Source: Acidobacteriota bacterium (lineage in GTDB: Bacteria > Acidobacteriota > Blastocatellia > Chloracidobacteriales > Chloracidobacteriaceae). Taken from it: 64,000 nt of DNA. Both the position numbers and the translations under genes were made by a program. Location of the stretch: the NCBI GenBank assembly GCA_016208495.1, contig JACQXX010000070.1:62001-126000 (forward strand), written 5' to 3'. The notes under the pieces were generated by a model. The model did not search any database and had not been told where the DNA came from. It saw only the letters and a list, made by a program, of their open reading frames with translations. Shown piece by piece: positions 3,243-38,836 of this stretch (within the stretch, counting starts at the first letter, position 1; each line of letters starts with the position of its first letter).

Positions 3243-3420
3243 TGTAGTCAGTAGTCAGTAGTCAGTAGTCAGTAGTCGAGTGTTGGGGTTTAGGAGTTCA
3301 TGTCAAGTGTATTTTGTTCGATTTGAGTCATTTATGAACCATGCTCGTCAAGAAATTCACGGATTCAACGATCCAGGTTTTGTCTACTGACTACTGACTT
3401 ATCAACTACTGACTACTGAC
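3243..3420. repeat. Inverted AGTAGTC heptamer arrays around a unique core
   Basis: About five tandem copies of a 7-bp unit (AGTAGTC in one register) lie at 3244-3278. An inverted set (ACTACTG/ACTGACT) lies at 3384-3420 and abuts the stop codon of the neighbouring carboxylase gene. The core between them includes GAGTGTTGGGG and a GTCAAG-GTATTT segment that recurs in the similar element at 38650-38836, so these are two copies of one repeat family. Folded, the two arms would make a long hairpin at the 3' end of the carboxylase transcript. Confidence 0.85.
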
Positions 3421-4991: not shown

Positions 4992-5066
4992 CGGGGAAAG
5001 TCCTCACTCAATTGGAGTTGGTCGGGGCAACACAGGAATGGAAGCAGGATGAAGAAAGCTTTTAGT

Positions 5067-5137
5067 GGTTAGTGGTTAGTGGTTAGTTCTTGGTTCTTGG
5101 AGGCTAGCGATTTCTAACCACTAACCACTAACCACTT
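5067..5137. repeat. Inverted GTGGTTA heptamer arrays
   Basis: About three copies of GTGGTTA lie at 5067-5088 and are followed by a short core, then by the inverted array TAACCAC at 5114-5137. The element lies between the msrB stop and the carboxylase start and is flanked by GAAGAA/TTCTTC runs. It is one member of a family found also near 6752, 17772, 29120 and 32220. Confidence 0.85.
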
Positions 5138-6751: not shown

Positions 6752-6892
6752 AATGAAGAATGAAGAATGTGGTTAGTGGTTAGAAATCAATAGCTTCCAA
6801 GAACCAAGAACTAAAAACCAAGAGCCAGGAACTAATCACTAATCACTAACCACTAATCACCAGGTTTCTTTATTCTCTGTTCTTCATTTTGT
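6752..6892. repeat. GAAGAAT and GTGGTTA heptamer element
   Basis: The segment starts with GAAGAAT repeats and two GTGGTTA units. An AGAAATCAATA-type core follows, then a run of CCAAGAAC-like degenerate repeats, then inverted TAATCAC/TAACCAC units at about 6833-6862. The core sequence is shared with the elements at 17772, 29120 and 32220. Confidence 0.75.
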
Positions 6893-14799: not shown

Positions 14800-16032
14800 A
14801 TGATTTGTCCTCAGTGCGGATACCTGCAATCAGACGACCGGATTCCCTGTCGTCGGTGCGGACAAGCGGTCCATTCTACGTCACAGCGTTCATCAGTTGG
14901 AAGTGTTTTAGATTTTCCCGGCAATACTCGGGGAGGAGTATTCAAAATGTCATCCCAGCGCCCTCCGATGGAGGTTCATAGTGCTCCCAATGTCCCGGCG
15001 TGGCGAGCCGAATTGAGCGCTCGCGTGCGACAGATTAAAGCCCGGCGTTCGATGGAAGCCGAACTTGAAGCCGCGATTCAGGAGCAGCAAAAATTGGCCG
15101 CTCTGGTCGCTCAGCCCAATGTGATTACGGTGACGGCGGAACCGGTCGCGATTGCGCCGGTACCAGAGCCTCCCCCACCTGTGGTCGAAGTGCTGAAATT
15201 TGAAGAGATTCACACCGATGAAAAATCTGAAAACCCGATTGTGAAAGCCATGCTGGACCGGGTACGCCGGGCATCTGAACACAGTCGTTCGATTGACGCG
15301 CCAACCCCACCGAAGCCTCGGTCAACTGGGATTCATCGGATGGCGACCACCCAGCCGATTTTGACCACGGCCACGGCGCCAGCGACGTTGCTCTCACCTG
15401 TTTCGGAACCCGCGATGCCCGATGTTTCCCTACACGCGGTTCCATCGCCATCAGTTGTGGCTGAACCTGTCCAATCTCCAGTCAGCCAGCTAAGTGAAGG
15501 ACAATCCCTCTCCGCATTTGTTGGCTCAGAATCCTTTATGGGTGTGCCGGAAACGGATGAGTTTGCCTTTTCAGAACTGGATGCAGAGCTGGATGCTGTC
15601 TTTACTGCCTCCGGCGAGGTTGTTCGCCCTGAAATTGTGGAGCGCTTGCGTGCCGGCGCCATTGATGTGGCTACGATACTGATTTCGAATGTGCCGCTAT
15701 GGATTGCGGTTCAGGCAGTTGGGGCGGAATTTACTGACGCTCGGGTTGCCGTGCTCCTGACCGTAGCTGGTATTTTGATTGCGGGCGTGTACCTGTTTGG
15801 AACGATGGCGGTTGCTGGCCAAACCTTTGGCATGCAATTTGGCGGGTTATGTGTGGTTTGCACCCAAACGCGGCAGATTCCAACCTTAAAACAGGCATTT
15901 TTACGGGCAATTGGTTATGTTGCCTCCTTTTTTACATTGATGATTGGATTTGTTTGGGCTATTTTTGACCCCAATCAACGCGGGCTTCACGAGCACCTCT
16001 CTGGAACACAGCTCATCCGCGTCGGAAAATGA
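14800..16032 (+). CDS. Zinc-ribbon RDD-family membrane protein
   Basis: This 410-residue protein has three parts. The N-terminus carries a zinc ribbon with two CxxC pairs (MICPQCGYLQ and PCRRCGQ). About residues 45-280 are low-complexity, rich in Pro, Ala, Val and Glu, with a short helical KARRSMEAELEAAIQEQQKL segment. The C-terminal 130 residues form an RDD domain with three hydrophobic segments, ending in DPNQRGLHEHLSGTQLIRV, which matches the RDD C-terminal motif. RDD proteins are membrane proteins of mostly unknown role, some tied to ion transport. A GGAG lies about 13 bp before the ATG. Confidence 0.82.
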   Translation: MICPQCGYLQSDDRIPCRRCGQAVHSTSQRSSVGSVLDFPGNTRGGVFKMSSQRPPMEVHSAPNVPAWRAELSARVRQIKARRSMEAELEAAIQEQQKLAALVAQPNVITVTAEPVAIAPVPEPPPPVVEVLKFEEIHTDEKSENPIVKAMLDRVRRASEHSRSIDAPTPPKPRSTGIHRMATTQPILTTATAPATLLSPVSEPAMPDVSLHAVPSPSVVAEPVQSPVSQLSEGQSLSAFVGSESFMGVPETDEFAFSELDAELDAVFTASGEVVRPEIVERLRAGAIDVATILISNVPLWIAVQAVGAEFTDARVAVLLTVAGILIAGVYLFGTMAVAGQTFGMQFGGLCVVCTQTRQIPTLKQAFLRAIGYVASFFTLMIGFVWAIFDPNQRGLHEHLSGTQLIRVGK

Positions 16033-16096
16033 AGAATGAAGAATGAAGAAACTCTTCAGCTTAATTCTTAATTCTTAATTCTTAATTCTTAATTCT
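16033..16096. repeat. GAAGAAT and AATTCTT heptamer arrays
   Basis: Right after the RDD stop there are two GAAGAAT units, a short gap, and about five copies of AATTCTT ending 7 bp before the tRNA gene. The two arrays are partly complementary and could pair at the 3' end of the RDD mRNA. Confidence 0.8.
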
Positions 16097-16102
16097 AATC
16101 CT

Positions 16103-16432
16103 GCCGGGGTGGTGGAATAGGTAGACACAACGGACTTAAGTCAGTCAATTGAGCACGTTGGATGGAAACACCAGCGTGAATGGAGCCAAATTCGGTGAAC
16201 CCTTTCAGGTCAAGCTGATGGCAACGCCGAGCTAAAGCGATTGCAGGTCGGTTGCAATCGCAAAGTGTAGAGACGAGACGGCTCCCTCCTGTGCGCAAAT
16301 TCAAGCTGTATTGTGTATGGAGAAGGCATCGTCCAGACCACAAACTGAATGACTTCAGGCAGTGAAAACTGCAGTGGTAAGAAAATCCGTTGCTGCTTAC
16401 GCGGCGTGCGGGTTCGAGTCCCGCCCTCGGCA
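16103..16432 (+). tRNA. trnL: tRNA-Leu(UAA), interrupted by a group I intron
   Basis: Exon 1 is 16103-16137 and exon 2 is 16382-16432. The acceptor stem pairs GCCGGGG with CCTCGGC (one G-U), and the discriminator base is A at 16432. The T arm is GCGGG-TTCGAGT-CCCGC. The long variable arm GCTGC-TTAC-GCGGC marks a class II tRNA. The anticodon stem ACGGA/TCCGT closes the loop C-T-T-A-A-A-A once the intron is removed, so the anticodon is TAA (leucine). CCA is not encoded. The GNAT gene starts 93 bp downstream. Confidence 0.95.
16138..16381 (+). ncRNA. Group I intron in tRNA-Leu(UAA), inserted between anticodon positions 34 and 35
   Basis: This 244-nt intron starts with AAG after the exon's final T and ends in G, as group I introns do. 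Pairings that I could check by eye are listed. P2 is CACGTTGG with CCAGCGTG. P3 is GGAGCC at 16182-16187 with GGCTCC at 16280-16285. P7 is GACGA at 16272-16276 with TCGTC at 16329-16333. P8 is CTCC at 16286-16289 with GGAG at 16319-16322. A P9-type hairpin GCAGT-GAAA-ACTGC with a GNRA loop lies at 16359-16372. A 9-bp hairpin GCGATTGCA/TGCAATCGC lies at 16237-16261. The core reads GTGTAGAGACGAGACGG where the cyanobacterial intron reads a close variant. Insertion site and size match the tRNA-Leu(UAA) intron of cyanobacteria and plastids. No homing endonuclease is encoded. Confidence 0.93.
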
Positions 16433-16524
16433 TCCTTCACCAATTCAACATTCTCCTGCCTTACCTCCAGGAAGCCCCGCCTGGGACTTCGCGAGGATCG
16501 TGCGGGCAAGTTATTTCATTTCCA

Positions 16525-17165: not shown

Positions 17166-17771
17166 ATGGCTAATTTAGTACTGATTCGTCACGGTGAATC
17201 GCAGTGGAATTTGGAAAATCGCTTTACGGGCTGGGTGGATGTGCCGCTGTCACCAAAAGGGGAAGCGGAAGCCCTCGCGGCGGGCGAAAAAATCAAAGGC
17301 ATGCACTTTGACTACCTGTTTACTTCGGTGCTCAAGCGGGCGATTGATACCGCGACCATTGCCACCGGAGTTTCTGGCCACCAGGATTTGCCCGTCAAAC
17401 GGGATCAAGCGCTCAATGAACGCCATTACGGTGACTTACAGGGGCTCAATAAAGCGGAAACGGCTGAAAAATTTGGAGATGCCCAGGTGAAAATCTGGCG
17501 TCGAAGTTATGATGTCCAGCCTCCAAATGGCGAAAGCCTGGCTGATACCGCCGCTCGGGTACTGCCTTACTACGAAGCTGAAATCTTCCCGCTCTTAAAG
17601 CAGGGCAAGGATGTTTTGATTGTCGCACACGGCAACAGTCTGCGCTCACTGGTGATGCACCTGGATCAATTGACCCGAGAGCAGGTGATTGAACTCAATA
17701 TCCCAACTGGTGCGCCTTTGCTCTATGAACTCAACGAAGATGGAAACGTGCTTTCGTCGCGCTACCTTTAA
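17166..17771 (+). CDS. gpmA: 2,3-bisphosphoglycerate-dependent phosphoglycerate mutase
   Basis: This glycolytic enzyme interconverts 3- and 2-phosphoglycerate through a phosphohistidine. The phosphorylated His is in [18 protein letters not shown], the catalytic Glu in [13 protein letters not shown], and the second His in [15 protein letters not shown]. At 201 residues it is shorter than the E. coli enzyme (about 250) but matches the compact form found in several phyla. The ATG is preceded by AAGGGGAGCACTT, a strong ribosome binding site. The gene is convergent with guaB across a heptamer hairpin element. An 8-bp inverted repeat GATTCAAT/ATTGAATC lies upstream at 17100-17135. Confidence 0.95.
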
Positions 17772-17935
17772 GAAGATGAAGAAAGTGGTTAGTGGTTAGT
17801 GGTTAGTGGTTAGTGGTTAGTGGTTAGTGGTTAGTGGTTAGTTTCGAAGACCCGGAACCCGATGGCTGGTTTTTCTTCGAAAGTATTGATTTCTAACCAC
17901 TAACCACTAACCACTAACCACTTTCTTCATTCCCG
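17772..17935. repeat. Inverted GTGGTTA arrays (8 copies versus 4) between convergent genes
   Basis: Eight exact GTGGTTA copies at 17785-17840 face four exact TAACCAC copies at 17894-17921. The core contains TTCTTCGAAAGTATTGATTTC, whose complement recurs in the elements at 29120 and 32220. GAAGAA and TTCTTC runs bound the element. It lies between gpmA and guaB, where a bidirectional terminator hairpin would be expected. Confidence 0.92.
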
Positions 17936-17937
17936 TC

Positions 17938-19947
<2,010 letters not shown>

Positions 19948-30473: not shown

Positions 30474-31240
30474 TGAGCATATTTCTCACCGGCTTTGATG
30501 GCGACGGTTAAGACATTTTGTTGAGGAGGAATCGGGCAACTGTAGCTGGAATTATAAGCGCAGAAAGGACTAAATGCCCGATTAAAATCAAGGACATAGG
30601 TGCCAGTTTCATTTTCTTCAAGCTCCAGATAGCGGCCAGCACCATACGTTTCCACACCGGATGTCGCGTCTTTGAACGGCACAAAAAGCGTTCGCAAGGC
30701 CAGCGGCGAAGCGTTTTGCACACTTTTCAAGGCAAGCAGGGAACATTTCGTGCCGGATATTTCAAAGTGAAATGAGCCAACTACTGTGTAGAGGCGATCT
30801 TCACCATTCGTGGCTGGCATTTTCAGTGTTTCCCCTGACTTTGAAGGTGTGAGCTGGCACACAATTCGATAGTTCAGATCAACCGGAAAATAGGTCAAGC
30901 CTTTAAACGCCGCCCGTTCACTTTCAGGGATTGGCGATCCATCCAGGTTCTTCAATGAATAATCTTTTGCCTGTCGAAGTTCTTCGAGTGCCTTCTGAAT
31001 TGATTCAGGCGAGGCTTTCGGGTTGGTCAAGGGATCGGTTTCAGTCGGAGACCCAACTGGTGACGTCTGTTTTTGGGGAATTTTAGGAAGTTCTGAATCC
31101 GATACCTTCTGAGGCTGGTTAGTACACGAAGCAGTGAGGCCGACAGCCAGTGTAACCAGCATCAGAAACAACCGTGCCTTGAAAGTCAAATAGCAGCAAT
31201 GATTTAAACCTTTAAACACAAGGCAGGAAATCCTTTTCAT
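30467..31240 (-). CDS. DUF1684 family lipoprotein
   Basis: A 257-residue protein whose C-terminal part has the DUF1684 signature: LFVPFKDATSGVETYGAGRY followed by LDFNRAFSPFCAYNSSYSC and PIPPQQNVLTVAIKAGEKY. The N-terminus has a hydrophobic segment ending LTASC, a lipobox, so it is probably a lipoprotein exposed outside the inner membrane. The N-terminal 26 residues before MLVTLAVGL may or may not be translated; the ATG at 31240 lacks a clear ribosome binding site. The biochemical role of DUF1684 is not known to me. Confidence 0.85.
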   Translation of the reverse strand: MKRISCLVFKGLNHCCYLTFKARLFLMLVTLAVGLTASCTNQPQKVSDSELPKIPQKQTSPVGSPTETDPLTNPKASPESIQKALEELRQAKDYSLKNLDGSPIPESERAAFKGLTYFPVDLNYRIVCQLTPSKSGETLKMPATNGEDRLYTVVGSFHFEISGTKCSLLALKSVQNASPLALRTLFVPFKDATSGVETYGAGRYLELEENETGTYVLDFNRAFSPFCAYNSSYSCPIPPQQNVLTVAIKAGEKYAHQ

Positions 31241-31249
31241 TTGGTGAGG

Positions 31250-31400
31250 GCTTGTGGGTCGAGGGGTCGAGGGTTGAAGACCTCAGGCTGAAGGTGTCGG
31301 GTTGGAGAATTGGTTTTCTTTCATCCCTCATCCTTCATCCCTTTGGTTGCCCCCAGCCTGTCGTCTTCATCCCGAAAATCTTCATCCCGAGCCTCAGAGA
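31250..31400. repeat. Degenerate GGGTCGAGGG / CATCCCTCATCC element
   Basis: The spacer between the DUF1684 gene and the crotonase has short imperfect repeats (GTCGAGGGGTCGAGGG, CATCCCTCATCCTTCATCCC). They face each other as partly complementary arms and look like an eroded version of the neighbouring inverted arrays. Confidence 0.5.
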
Positions 31401-31401
31401 A

Positions 31402-32178
31402 CTACTTGCCCTTAAATTCCGGTTTCCGCTTTTCGAGGAACGCTTTGACGCCTTCTTCTTTGTCTTCACTGGCAAAACACAGGGCAAACAGGTCAACTTC
31501 GCGTTCAAGACCTTCGCGCAGATTGGCTTTGGCGGCTGATTTCACCGCTTCTTTCGCAAAGCGAAGGGCAACCGGGCTCTTGTCGGCAATCTTTTTGGCC
31601 AGTTCGAGGGTTTTGGCTTCAAGTTCAGCGTGTGGAAAGACGTGGTTGACAAGGCCAAGTTTGAGGGCTTCCTGAGCATCAACCATATCGCCAGTCAGAA
31701 TGAGTTCCATGGCTTTGCCTTCACCAATCAGCCGGGCCATGCGTTGTGTTCCTCCACCACCGGGAATGACACCCAGTTTAATTTCAGGCTGGCCGAGTTT
31801 GGCATTTTCGCTCGCGACACGGATGTCGCAGGCAAGTGCCAGTTCGCAGCCGCCACCCAGACAAAAGCCGTTGATCATGGCAATGACTGGTTTGGGGAAG
31901 TTTTCCATTGCGTCAAATGCCCGGCGGCGGGTCATCACTTCGCGTTGGGTGATGGCGGTCATTCCGGCAAATTCACTGATGTCGGCACCAGCAATAAAAG
32001 CTTTTTCGCCCACACCGGTCACAATCAGAACTCGAACTTCCGCATCATCATGCAGTTCTTCGAGCGCCTTCAAAATCTCATTCCGGGTTGGAATGTTGAG
32101 GGCGTTCAGCTTGTCAGGACGGTTAATTTTTAAGAAGGCAATCGCACCTTGCTTTTCAATTAAGAGATTTTCGTACAC
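31402..32178 (-). CDS. Enoyl-CoA hydratase (crotonase)
   Basis: A 258-residue classical crotonase that adds water to trans-2-enoyl-CoA. The oxyanion motif AFIAGADISEF, the second motif NGFCLGGGCELALACDIRVAS with its catalytic Glu, and LGVIPGGGGTQRMARLIG with the second Glu/Gly region are all standard. It probably works in beta-oxidation or butanoate metabolism together with the 3-hydroxyacyl-CoA dehydrogenase encoded about 300 bp upstream on the same strand. A heptamer repeat element separates the two, so co-transcription is uncertain. Confidence 0.94.
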   Translation of the reverse strand: MYENLLIEKQGAIAFLKINRPDKLNALNIPTRNEILKALEELHDDAEVRVLIVTGVGEKAFIAGADISEFAGMTAITQREVMTRRRAFDAMENFPKPVIAMINGFCLGGGCELALACDIRVASENAKLGQPEIKLGVIPGGGGTQRMARLIGEGKAMELILTGDMVDAQEALKLGLVNHVFPHAELEAKTLELAKKIADKSPVALRFAKEAVKSAAKANLREGLEREVDLFALCFASEDKEEGVKAFLEKRKPEFKGK

Positions 32179-32219: not shown

Positions 32220-32477
32220 ATAGGGAATGAAGAAAGTGGTTAGTGGTTAGTGGTTAGTGGTTAGTGGTTAGTGGTTAAGTACCTTACCGAAAATTCCAAG
32301 ACATTTTGAACCACGAAACACACGAAATACACGAAAAGAATCAAACACTTACCAAATTCAATATCTCAGGAAACTTATGACAAAGTACTTAGTGGTTAGT
32401 GGTTAGTGGTTAGAAATCAATACTTTCGAAGAAGAACCAAGAACTAACCACTAATCACTAACCACTAGATGATTTCT
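32220..32477. repeat. Inverted GTGGTTA heptamer element
   Basis: GAAGAAA is followed by about six GTGGTTA units (32236-32276). A unique stretch with CACGAAACACACGAAATACACGAAA comes next. Two or three more GTGGTTA units follow at 32392-32413, then the AGAAATCAATACTTTCGAAG core and the inverted arm TAACCACTAATCACTAACCAC at 32442-32467. Confidence 0.88.
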
Positions 32478-35919: not shown

Positions 35920-38649
35920 ATGATCATTGATAAGCTTTTGACTCGAATTTTTGGCAGCGCAAACGAACGGTATCTGAAACGAATTCGTCCGCTTGTCACT
36001 GTAATCAACGACCTCGAACCTGACATCCAAAAACTCACGGATGACCAGCTCCGGGCGCAAACTGTGAAGTTTAAAGAACGTCTCGATGCGGGTGAATCGC
36101 TTGACGATCTGCTTCCAGAAGCCTTTGCCACCGTGCGCGAAGCCTCCCGCCGAACCACCACCATGCGGCATTTCGATGTCCAGATGATTGGTGGCATGGT
36201 GTTGCACCAGGGGCGGATTGCGGAAATGCGAACCGGTGAAGGAAAAACCCTGGTTGCCACACTTCCTTCCTACCTCAATGCCCTCACTGGGAAAGGCGTC
36301 CATGTCGTGACGGTGAACGATTACCTGGCTCGCCGTGACGCCGAATGGATGGGCCGAATCCATAAATTTCTGGGGCTCTCGGTCGGTGTCATCCAGAGCA
36401 ATATTGATGACTTCACCCGGCGCGAAGCCTATGGGGCTGACATCACCTATGGGACCAACAACGAATTCGGCTTCGATTACCTGCGCGATAACATGAAGTT
36501 CAGTATCGCCCAGTGCGTCCAGCGCGAATACAATTTCGCCATCGTGGACGAAGTGGACTCGATTCTGATTGATGAAGCCCGTACTCCGTTGATCATCGCC
36601 GGCGCCTCAGACGATTCGACTGAGAAGTACTATATCGCTAATGACATTATCCCGCGGCTGAATGGTGAAACCGATTTTCTGGTTGATGAAAAAACACATA
36701 CGGCCACACTGACGGAAGAGGGAATCGAACACGCCGAAAAATTGCTCGCCTGCGGCAACCTCTATGATCCGGCCAATCGTGAAATTCTGCATTGCGTCAA
36801 CCAGGCCCTGCGCGCGCATACCCTCTATAAAGTTGATAAAGATTACATCGTCAAAGATGGCGAAGTCGTGATTGTTGACGAACATACTGGACGCATGATG
36901 ACCGGTCGTCGCTGGTCAGATGGATTGCACCAGGCCGTTGAAGCCAAAGAAGGGGTGAAGATTGAAAAAGAAACCCAGACACTGGCCACCGTCACGCTGC
37001 AAAACTATTTCCGCATGTATGACAAACTTGCTGGAATGACAGGTACCGCCGAAACAGAAGCTCCTGAATTTGCAAAGATTTACAACCTTGACGTGACAAT
37101 TATTCCGACCAATCGGGCGATGGTCCGTGTGGATAATCCAGATCTGGTGTATCGCACGGAGGCCGAAAAATGGGATGCTGCGGTGGAAGAAATTAAGGAG
37201 TTGTATGCCAAGGGGCAGCCAGTTCTGGTTGGGACGGCATCGGTGGAAAATTCAGAGCATCTGTCAGCCCTGCTCAAAAAAGTCAACGTGCCCCACAATG
37301 TGCTCAACGCCAAATACCACGAACGCGAAGCCGAAATCGTGGCCCAGGCTGGCCGGAAGGGGATGGTCACGATTGCCACCAACATGGCCGGTCGTGGAAC
37401 AGACATTCTGCTGGGTGGAAATCCAGAATTCCTGGCCAAAGAAATTCTGAAACGTCAGGAAATCAATCCAGACGAAGCCACTCCAGAGCAACTTGAACCC
37501 GCACTCATTGAAGCTCAAGCCATTGTCGCCAAAGAACATGAGGAAGTTGTCAGCCTCGGCGGCCTCCACATTCTCGGCACCGAACGCCACGAATCACGTC
37601 GAATTGACAATCAGCTCCGTGGTCGTGCCGGGCGTCAGGGAGATCCTGGTTCGTCACGATTTTACCTCTCGCTCGAAGATGATCTGATGCGCATCTTCGG
37701 TGGCGAACGGGTCAAAAACCTGATGCTTCGCCTGGGAATGGAAGAAGGCGTGGCGATTGAAAGCAAGATGGTTTCCAAACAGGTCGAACGTGCCCAGAAA
37801 TCAGTTGAAGGTCATAACTTCTCAATCCGCAAGCACTTGCTTGAATATGACGACGTCATGAACAAGCAGCGTGAAACAATTTATGGTTTGCGGCGCGAGT
37901 TGATCTCAGAAGGGGTTGAAGACCGACGGGAATTTATCAATGTCGCGGAAGACTTGCTCACCGACATCGTTGAGGAATTTGCCAGTGAGGATGTCCATCC
38001 GGATGAATGGAATCTGGATGGTCTCAAGATCAAACTGCAAGATATTTATGGGTTTGACCTTGAAGCGCATGAGCTGGATTTTGATGCGCTTTCAGCCGCT
38101 GAACTGCGGGATGAAATCTGGAAATTACTGAAGGAAATGTATGCCGAGAAAGAAGCGGCGGTTGGTTCAGACCGCATGCGGGAACTTGAGCGCTACATTA
38201 TGCTCAATGTGGTTGATGCCCAGTGGAAAGACCATCTGGCCCAACTTGACCACCTGAAGGAAGGCATCAGCCTGCGCGCCTATGGTCAAAAAGATCCACT
38301 CGTGGAATATAAGAAAGAATCACGGGTGCTCTTTGACGAAATGATTGACCGGATTGATGAAGAATCAGTGCGGTTTATGTTCAATATGCGCATCGAAGTC
38401 GCCGAACAGGCGGCTGAAAACATTGAGGTTCCGGACGAAGAAGCACCGGCGCCAACGCCAGTTCCGATGCGGCGACCAGTCCGCCGACAACCACAAATGG
38501 TCTACACCAAAGCCAACGCTGGCGCCTCCCGAGCTGGGGAAACGGCGGAAGCCAAAGCCCAGCCAGTGGTTAAACTGCCGAAGGTTGGCCGTAACGAGCC
38601 CTGTCCGTGCGGCTCAGGCAAGAAATACAAGCAGTGTCATGGGGCTTAA
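35920..38649 (+). CDS. secA: Preprotein translocase motor ATPase SecA
   Basis: SecA is the ATP-driven motor that pushes unfolded proteins through SecYEG. The 909-residue protein has [17 protein letters not shown] (Walker A), a [19 protein letters not shown] motif (Walker B/DEAD), the [11 protein letters not shown] segment of the second helicase fold, [13 protein letters not shown] and [17 protein letters not shown]. The C-terminus has a Pro-rich linker and the zinc/SecB-binding motif [15 protein letters not shown]. All motifs are intact and the length is normal. The start ATG has no Shine-Dalgarno sequence. Heptamer repeats begin right after the stop. Confidence 0.98.
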
Positions 38650-38836
38650 GTCAGTAGTCAGTAGTCAGTAGTCAGTAGTCAGTAGTCAGTAGTCAGTAGT
38701 TGAGTGTTGGGAATTGAGAATTTTTGTCAAGGGTATTTCTTTCTATTTGTGCGGTTTATTGACAATTCCTGTGAGGGTAGCCACTTGGCTGAAAGGTTCT
38801 CGATTTGACTTACTGACTACTGACTACTGACTACTA
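38650..38836. repeat. Inverted AGTAGTC heptamer arrays between secA and homoserine dehydrogenase
   Basis: About seven AGTAGTC-register units follow the secA stop (38651-38700). A core with GAGTGTTGGG and GTCAAGGGTATTT comes next, and the inverted arm ACTGACTACTGACTACTGACTACT lies at about 38810-38834 in the 3' end of the convergent gene. It is the same element as at 3243-3420. Confidence 0.9.

Follow-up and report, generated by a model that had tools for sequence, protein, structure and literature searches.

A group I intron in the tRNA-Leu(UAA) gene of an acidobacterium and its relatives among bacterial tRNA introns

The tRNA-Leu(UAA) gene carried by a 64-kb stretch of DNA (64,000 nucleotides; the window) from a member of the class Blastocatellia, phylum Acidobacteriota, is interrupted by a genuine group I tRNA intron. 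There is little doubt in our minds that this is a ribozyme intron of a broad tRNA intron family, which would be kept by homing, horizontal transfer, and repeated loss. Introns of this kind are already known; the additions made here are the host phylum, a genome with three such ribozymes, presence and absence of the intron at the same locus, and a pool that crosses phyla.

Results

Layout of the interrupted tRNA-Leu(UAA) gene

The gene lies at positions 16103-16432 of the window and is interrupted between U34 and A35 (anticodon loop CUU^AAAA), the site of the cyanobacterial/plastid trnL(UAA) intron. The 5' exon (16103..16137, plus strand) ends at U34 of the anticodon, and the 3' exon (16382..16432, plus strand) runs from A35 to the discriminator A, with CCA not encoded; both were placed by sequence and by ARAGORN on the joined exons. 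The intron between them (16138..16381, plus strand), supported by covariance model R2 and covariation, is 244 nt long and ends in a G at position 16381. When the exons were joined, ARAGORN called tRNA-Leu(taa). No call was obtained for the unspliced gene, and no tRNA was called by ARAGORN across the unmodified 64-kb window. The initial annotation had described a tRNA-Leu(UAA) that folds once 244 nt are removed, an insertion between anticodon positions 34 and 35, a terminal G, and a size like that of the cyanobacterial/plastid intron, and these points are all borne out. The splice sites are common to the aligned Leu introns, and the terminal G is also present in the Leu, Ser, and Arg introns that we listed. 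No convincing protein gene was found inside the intron (16138-16381); two antisense open reading frames (ORFs) that run across it (16095-16433 and 16210-16509, minus strand) were treated as chance.

Structure of the intron core

The default Rfam scan of the window missed the intron. A permissive scan of a 751-bp region with RF00028 gave a weak match (20.7 bits, E 0.0069) that falls short of the 50-bit gathering cut-off, which is a curation threshold and not a biological property; other group I introns, present in the genomes from which related loci come, score 60-77 bits with the same model. Taken alone, Rfam would lead to rejection of the intron. Model R2, built from 13 proteobacterial tRNA introns and zero acidobacterial sequences, matched the window at 16179-16381 with 147.8 bits (E 3.7e-40), and this was its single match in the 64-kb window up to E 10. 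The group I core, for which a covariance model had been named as the check, is thus not rejected by R2, weak as the RF00028 match is. The energy folding of the intron also beat that of shuffled sequences (z -3.07).

We aligned 19 Leu introns, including the window copy, and assigned the structure by hand with P7 as a pseudoknot. In this structure, 95.2% of cells were paired, and changes on both sides of a pair were seen in 22 pairs and 119 cells, compared with 15.9 and 39.9 in shuffles (0/500). When the structure was slid along the alignment, pairing dropped to 29-42%.

In the segment spanning the 5' splice site (16135..16153, plus strand), the U.G splice-site pair carried by P1 is invariant in 19/19 introns. 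All further helices lie on the plus strand. In P2 (16154-16161 with 16171-16178), five of the eight pairs change on both sides and 82% of cells are paired. P3 (GGAGCC 16182-16187 with GGCUCC 16280-16285) is 100% paired and mostly invariant, and one pair of P4 (16192-16197 with 16225-16230) covaries among C-G, G-C, and U-A. P5 (16201-16202 with 16220-16221), P6 (16231-16232 with 16265-16266), and P6a (16237-16244 with 16254-16261) were assigned from the 19-intron alignment. P7, the guanosine-binding helix (GACGA 16272-16276 with UCGUC 16329-16333), forms a pseudoknot with P3 and is compensatory across relatives, which have GACGA/UCGUC, GACUU/AAGUC, or GACUA/UAGUC. P8 (CUCC 16286-16289 with GGAG 16319-16322) is 98.7% paired, one of its pairs occurring as four pair types. 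Changes on both sides were also found in P9.0 (16337-16341 with 16374-16378), P9 (16345-16347 with 16356-16358), and P9.1 (16359-16363 with 16368-16372). The window intron therefore has the conserved catalytic core P3-P8 with the P3/P7 pseudoknot, and P1, P4, P5, P6, P9.0, and P9.1 join the P2, P3, P7, P8, and P9 pairings noted earlier. The intron is a candidate member of subgroup IC3, with which its small size, its short P5, and the way P9 and P9.1 are arranged would agree.

As far as can be told from sequence, the intron is very probably functional. In the pre-tRNA, the end of the 5' exon (CUU) would pair with the guide sequence to form P1, and an external guanosine held in P7 would attack after U34. 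The freed U34 would then attack after the terminal G (16381), so that U34 and A35 are ligated and the UAA anticodon is restored.

UUA decoding and two further split tRNAs in the host genome

The host genome (8.4 Mb, 99% complete) is a draft of 177 contigs. A search of its DNA with the spliced tRNA returned the two halves described here and weak matches elsewhere, with no intact copy. A tRNA scan, in which 150 of 555 first-look candidates were scored, gave 45 tRNA matches; among these, intact Leu genes with TAG, GAG, CAG, and CAA anticodons were present and TAA was absent. Because of the limited number of candidates scored in the scan, the search with the spliced tRNA is the stronger evidence. 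A second intact tRNA-Leu(UAA), which the initial annotation had named, together with a lack of splicing of the present gene, as a finding that would speak against it, was thus not found in this assembly; since the assembly is a draft in 177 contigs, such a copy may have been overlooked. UUA is used in the main ORFs of the window, accounting for 103 of 17,629 codons.

Two further tRNA genes of the host (G000) are split. The initiator tRNA-fMet gene (contig C107, about 30871-31900, minus strand; L001/L090), identified from its sequence by C1xA72 and the GGG/CCC anticodon stem, is interrupted between U33 and C34, and its intron contains an ORF of 214 aa that matches LAGLIDADG_2 with 40.6 bits (cut-off 25). 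In the tRNA-Arg(UCU) gene (contig C104, 2902-3160, minus strand; L183), a third group I intron follows U36. Exact pattern matching, a weaker test than the one applied to Leu(UAA), gave no intact anticodon arm of fMet or Arg(UCU) in the draft assembly, and those Met(CAT) and Arg genes that were found intact in the host are of other types. As intact copies of fMet and Arg(UCU) were not found, translation initiation and AGA decoding would also need a ribozyme. Judging from the genes alone, three essential tRNAs, Leu(UAA), fMet, and Arg(UCU), appear to be dependent on ribozymes in this organism.

Some other features of this DNA were recorded. The window contains many tandem repeats with 7-bp units, mostly intergenic and reminiscent of cyanobacterial heptamer repeats (3244-3277, 5062-5087, 6831-6860, 16060-16096, 17784-17842, 32235-32277, 38649-38700, and others). 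Their units include AGTGGTT (8.4 copies), AGTCAGT (7.4 copies), and CTTAATT, the last directly upstream of tRNA-Leu, and similar 7-bp units flank the split tRNA-Arg on C104. The host genome also has odd or low-scoring tRNA-like genes packed closely together, perhaps as part of a mobile element, at C68:10200-10650 (L078) and C110:23000-23650 (L081), with Trp, Asp-ATC, Ser, and Gly-ACC, and with Gln and Met.

Distribution of related introns and comparison at the same locus

Among 58 genomes (the host and 57 relatives), six carry an intron in tRNA-Leu(UAA): the host, Blastocatellia bacterium SSF51 (G001), Pyrinomonas methylaliphatogenes K22 (G027), Chloracidobacterium sp. UBA7656 (G033), Acidobacteria bacterium Go_SlAct_bin_180 (G047), and G037. 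SSF51 belongs to the same family as the host, and G027, G033, and G047 belong to its class. Intron-less Leu(UAA) genes were verified in 23 other genomes, eight of them from the host's family. Model R1 matched 24 of 396 acidobacterial genomes in any tRNA (E <= 1e-5, strict filters that lose weak matches), with host tRNAs that include Leu(UAA), fMet, Ile/Met(CAU), Arg(UCU), and Asn(GUU).

The core motif was also looked for across 84,980 species genomes, which gave 47 loci. ARAGORN called a split tRNA at 46 of these, and exon patterns agree with Ser(UGA) for the other (L140); the ARAGORN labels of some split genes (Phe, Leu-CAA, Pro) were a few bases off and were corrected from the exons. Leu(UAA) was the host tRNA in Acidobacteriota, in a single Abditibacterium, and in several Gammaproteobacteria; Ser(UGA) loci came mostly from Betaproteobacteria, and Arg(UCU) and Arg(CCU) loci from Proteobacteria. 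The closest relatives found for the window intron were Leu(UAA) introns of other Blastocatellia, with cores up to 82% identical, and that of the one Abditibacterium, followed by proteobacterial tRNA introns. Ser(UGA) group I introns occur in many Betaproteobacteria, including Pusillimonas, Achromobacter, Propionivibrio, and Giesbergeria (L096, L105-L108, L113, L115, L117, L119, L123, and others), and no report of them was found in the literature searched. In the IMG/VR viral contigs L203 and L208, a group I intron ~244 nt long interrupts a gene resembling tRNA-Gln(CUG), and L155 (IMGVR_UViG_3300048865_000014) has a split tRNA-Ser(UGA) near the contig end, perhaps at a prophage attachment flank; according to a 2014 review, the phage group I introns known by then were all in protein genes (PMC3984707).

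The gene upstream of the split tRNA (14800..16032, plus strand; RDD-like by inspection), located at the other loci by tblastn, also adjoins tRNA-Leu(UAA) in G001, with an intron, and in G002-G009, without one. Downstream, the genes for phosphoglycerate mutase (17166..17771, plus strand) and IMP dehydrogenase (17938-19404) are 83% and 86% identical to their counterparts at the G001 locus (L086) and confirm the synteny of the two regions. With loci of the same context present both with and without the intron, it is the intron that comes and goes, in a tRNA gene that stays in place. The host and G001, which are of one family but of different genera, have introns at the syntenic locus that are unlike in P5, P7, and P8; placement of these two introns as sisters was weakly rejected (AU p 0.042).

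Intron phylogeny and homing genes

In a tree of 73 introns, clustering was largely by host tRNA, with Ser(UGA) introns in one clade (100/98) and fMet introns in another (99/96). The window intron fell in a group of 11 rows (99/94), the others being the Abditibacterium intron and nine Leu introns of acidobacterial or unassigned origin. Deep branches were weakly supported, and individual gains and losses were indistinguishable. A single clade of all Leu introns was weakly rejected (AU p 0.032) and one of all acidobacterial Leu introns was borderline (p 0.058); given long branches in both of the trees concerned, neither result is pressed here.

Four Leu introns contain an HNH_3 ORF in P6, all above the Pfam cut-off: L114 (Pyrinomonadaceae), L135 (Acidobacteria), L099 (an unassigned bacterium), and L097 (Cellvibrionales). 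The HNH proteins of L114 and L097 are 58% identical between Acidobacteriota and Gammaproteobacteria, and this likeness across phyla therefore favors transfer between phyla over strict descent. For homing, a putative process here, the observations are that intron-less syntenic loci exist, that Leu introns of relatives hold HNH genes, and that the window copy itself is ORF-less. In G047 (C673, 4388-6103; L082), a split tRNA with a CAU anticodon is found on the opposite strand, a few hundred bases away from an interrupted Leu(UAA) gene that has an HNH ORF.

Discussion

The initial annotation had noted that the window does not look cyanobacterial, and the host is indeed a member of the Acidobacteriota. 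A 2014 review lists tRNA group I introns only for Cyanobacteria, plastids, and alpha- and betaproteobacteria (PMC4033280), and introns in tRNA-Ile2 are described from Acidovorax and Burkholderia (PMC8450103). For Acidobacteriota, no such introns in tRNA genes were found described in the literature searched, which took in a minority of subscription journals.

Among known systems, the IC3 intron of cyanobacterial/plastid trnL(UAA) is alike in its tRNA, its U34/A35 site, its similar size, and the existence of a short ORF-less copy, but the window intron has an acidobacterial host, and its P3, P7, and P8 differ from a provisional Anabaena sequence, a comparison that serves as a lead only. Putative introns in tRNA-Leu(UAA) and tRNA-Arg(UCU) of Beggiatoa and Thiomargarita (PMC4853749) likewise occur in non-cyanobacterial hosts and affect the same tRNA pair as in our host genome; those hosts are Gammaproteobacteria, however, the structure and type of the introns were left undetermined there, and the present genome adds a split initiator tRNA. 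Azoarcus tRNA-Ile(CAU) and Agrobacterium-type tRNA-Arg(CCU) are likewise interrupted in the anticodon loop, by small IC3-type introns, and proteobacterial Arg(CCU) and Ser(UGA) introns share the core motif of the window intron. The Azoarcus and Agrobacterium-type introns sit in other host tRNAs than the window intron, the Arg(CCU) introns being inserted after U36. The split fMet gene with its ORF resembles the cyanobacterial tRNA-fMet introns with endonuclease ORFs (Synechocystis, Gloeobacter). The host ORF is of the LAGLIDADG_2 type, whereas the enzyme of the Synechocystis fMet intron is of another nuclease type.

An independent ancient occurrence or a transfer had been proposed at the outset, with cyanobacteria as the point of reference. 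The site, the size, and the group I type stand, but the framing is not supported: the nearest relatives found are those of Blastocatellia and one Abditibacterium, then of Proteobacteria. The pool is instead non-cyanobacterial, occupies several tRNA genes, contains endonuclease genes, and shows presence and absence at syntenic loci. If the intron had recently been transferred from a cyanobacterium or from a plastid, alone or along with its tRNA gene, this would account for the tRNA and insertion site shared with the cyanobacterial/plastid trnL intron, whose distribution is patchy and has been put down to gain and loss (PMC4476775). Such a transfer is nonetheless highly improbable: apart from the identity of the closest relatives found, intron-less relatives have a syntenic locus, so that the tRNA gene is resident, and the window intron is ~54% identical to the provisional Anabaena intron, among the lowest values of the set, again as a lead only. 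Acidobacterial fMet introns are locally nearer to the provisional Anabaena sequence (76.5% over 98 bases), which is likewise to be read as a lead only. Searches of IMG/VR for cyanobacterial-like motifs either had no match or brought up phage introns of a different type, and no intron was found in two cyanobacterial plasmids scanned.

Strict vertical descent within Leu(UAA) from an ancestor of Acidobacteriota, Proteobacteria, and Cyanobacteria, with many losses, would fit the identical site in several phyla and the clustering of introns largely by host tRNA gene. It is hard to reconcile with six intron-bearing against 23 verified intron-less genes among the sampled relatives, with R1 matches in so few acidobacterial genomes (24/396), with an Abditibacterium intron inside the well-supported Blastocatellia group, with differing introns at the syntenic locus of two genera (sisterhood being weakly rejected), and with intron HNH genes 58% identical across phyla; we regard it as unlikely, if somewhat less so than a recent cyanobacterial transfer. 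The most implausible of these readings is that the interrupted gene is a pseudogene whose transcript never undergoes splicing, with UUA read by another tRNA. No other gene with a UAA anticodon was found in the draft assembly, yet UUA codons are used and ordinary wobble rules leave no other tRNA for them, and the core is conserved with compensatory changes, all core helices being intact in the window copy.

The reading that we prefer is a family of anticodon-loop tRNA introns that spans Acidobacteriota, Abditibacteriota, and Proteobacteria and would persist by site-specific homing (in some members through HNH or LAGLIDADG enzymes), horizontal transfer, and repeated loss, with the window copy as an ORF-less member. 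The lineage of the window intron has probably spread horizontally and been lost repeatedly. A wider proposal, to which we give somewhat less than even weight, is that one pool of tRNA introns circulates among Acidobacteriota, Abditibacteriota, and Proteobacteria by means of HNH and LAGLIDADG enzymes, that it gave rise to the trnL and fMet introns of cyanobacteria and plastids as one of its branches instead of springing from them, and that some Blastocatellia need three ribozymes at once, for initiation (fMet) and to decode UUA and AGA.

Default tRNA finders miss split genes, and genomes of this kind therefore seem to be without essential tRNAs. Within one family, the phylum shows presence, absence, and apparent replacement of the intron at one syntenic locus. 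The same intron is carried by a named isolate, Pyrinomonas methylaliphatogenes K22, which makes splicing open to experiment. The acidobacterial introns also provide material for asking whether the cyanobacterial/plastid trnL intron is ancient and vertically inherited or a branch of a mobile pool.
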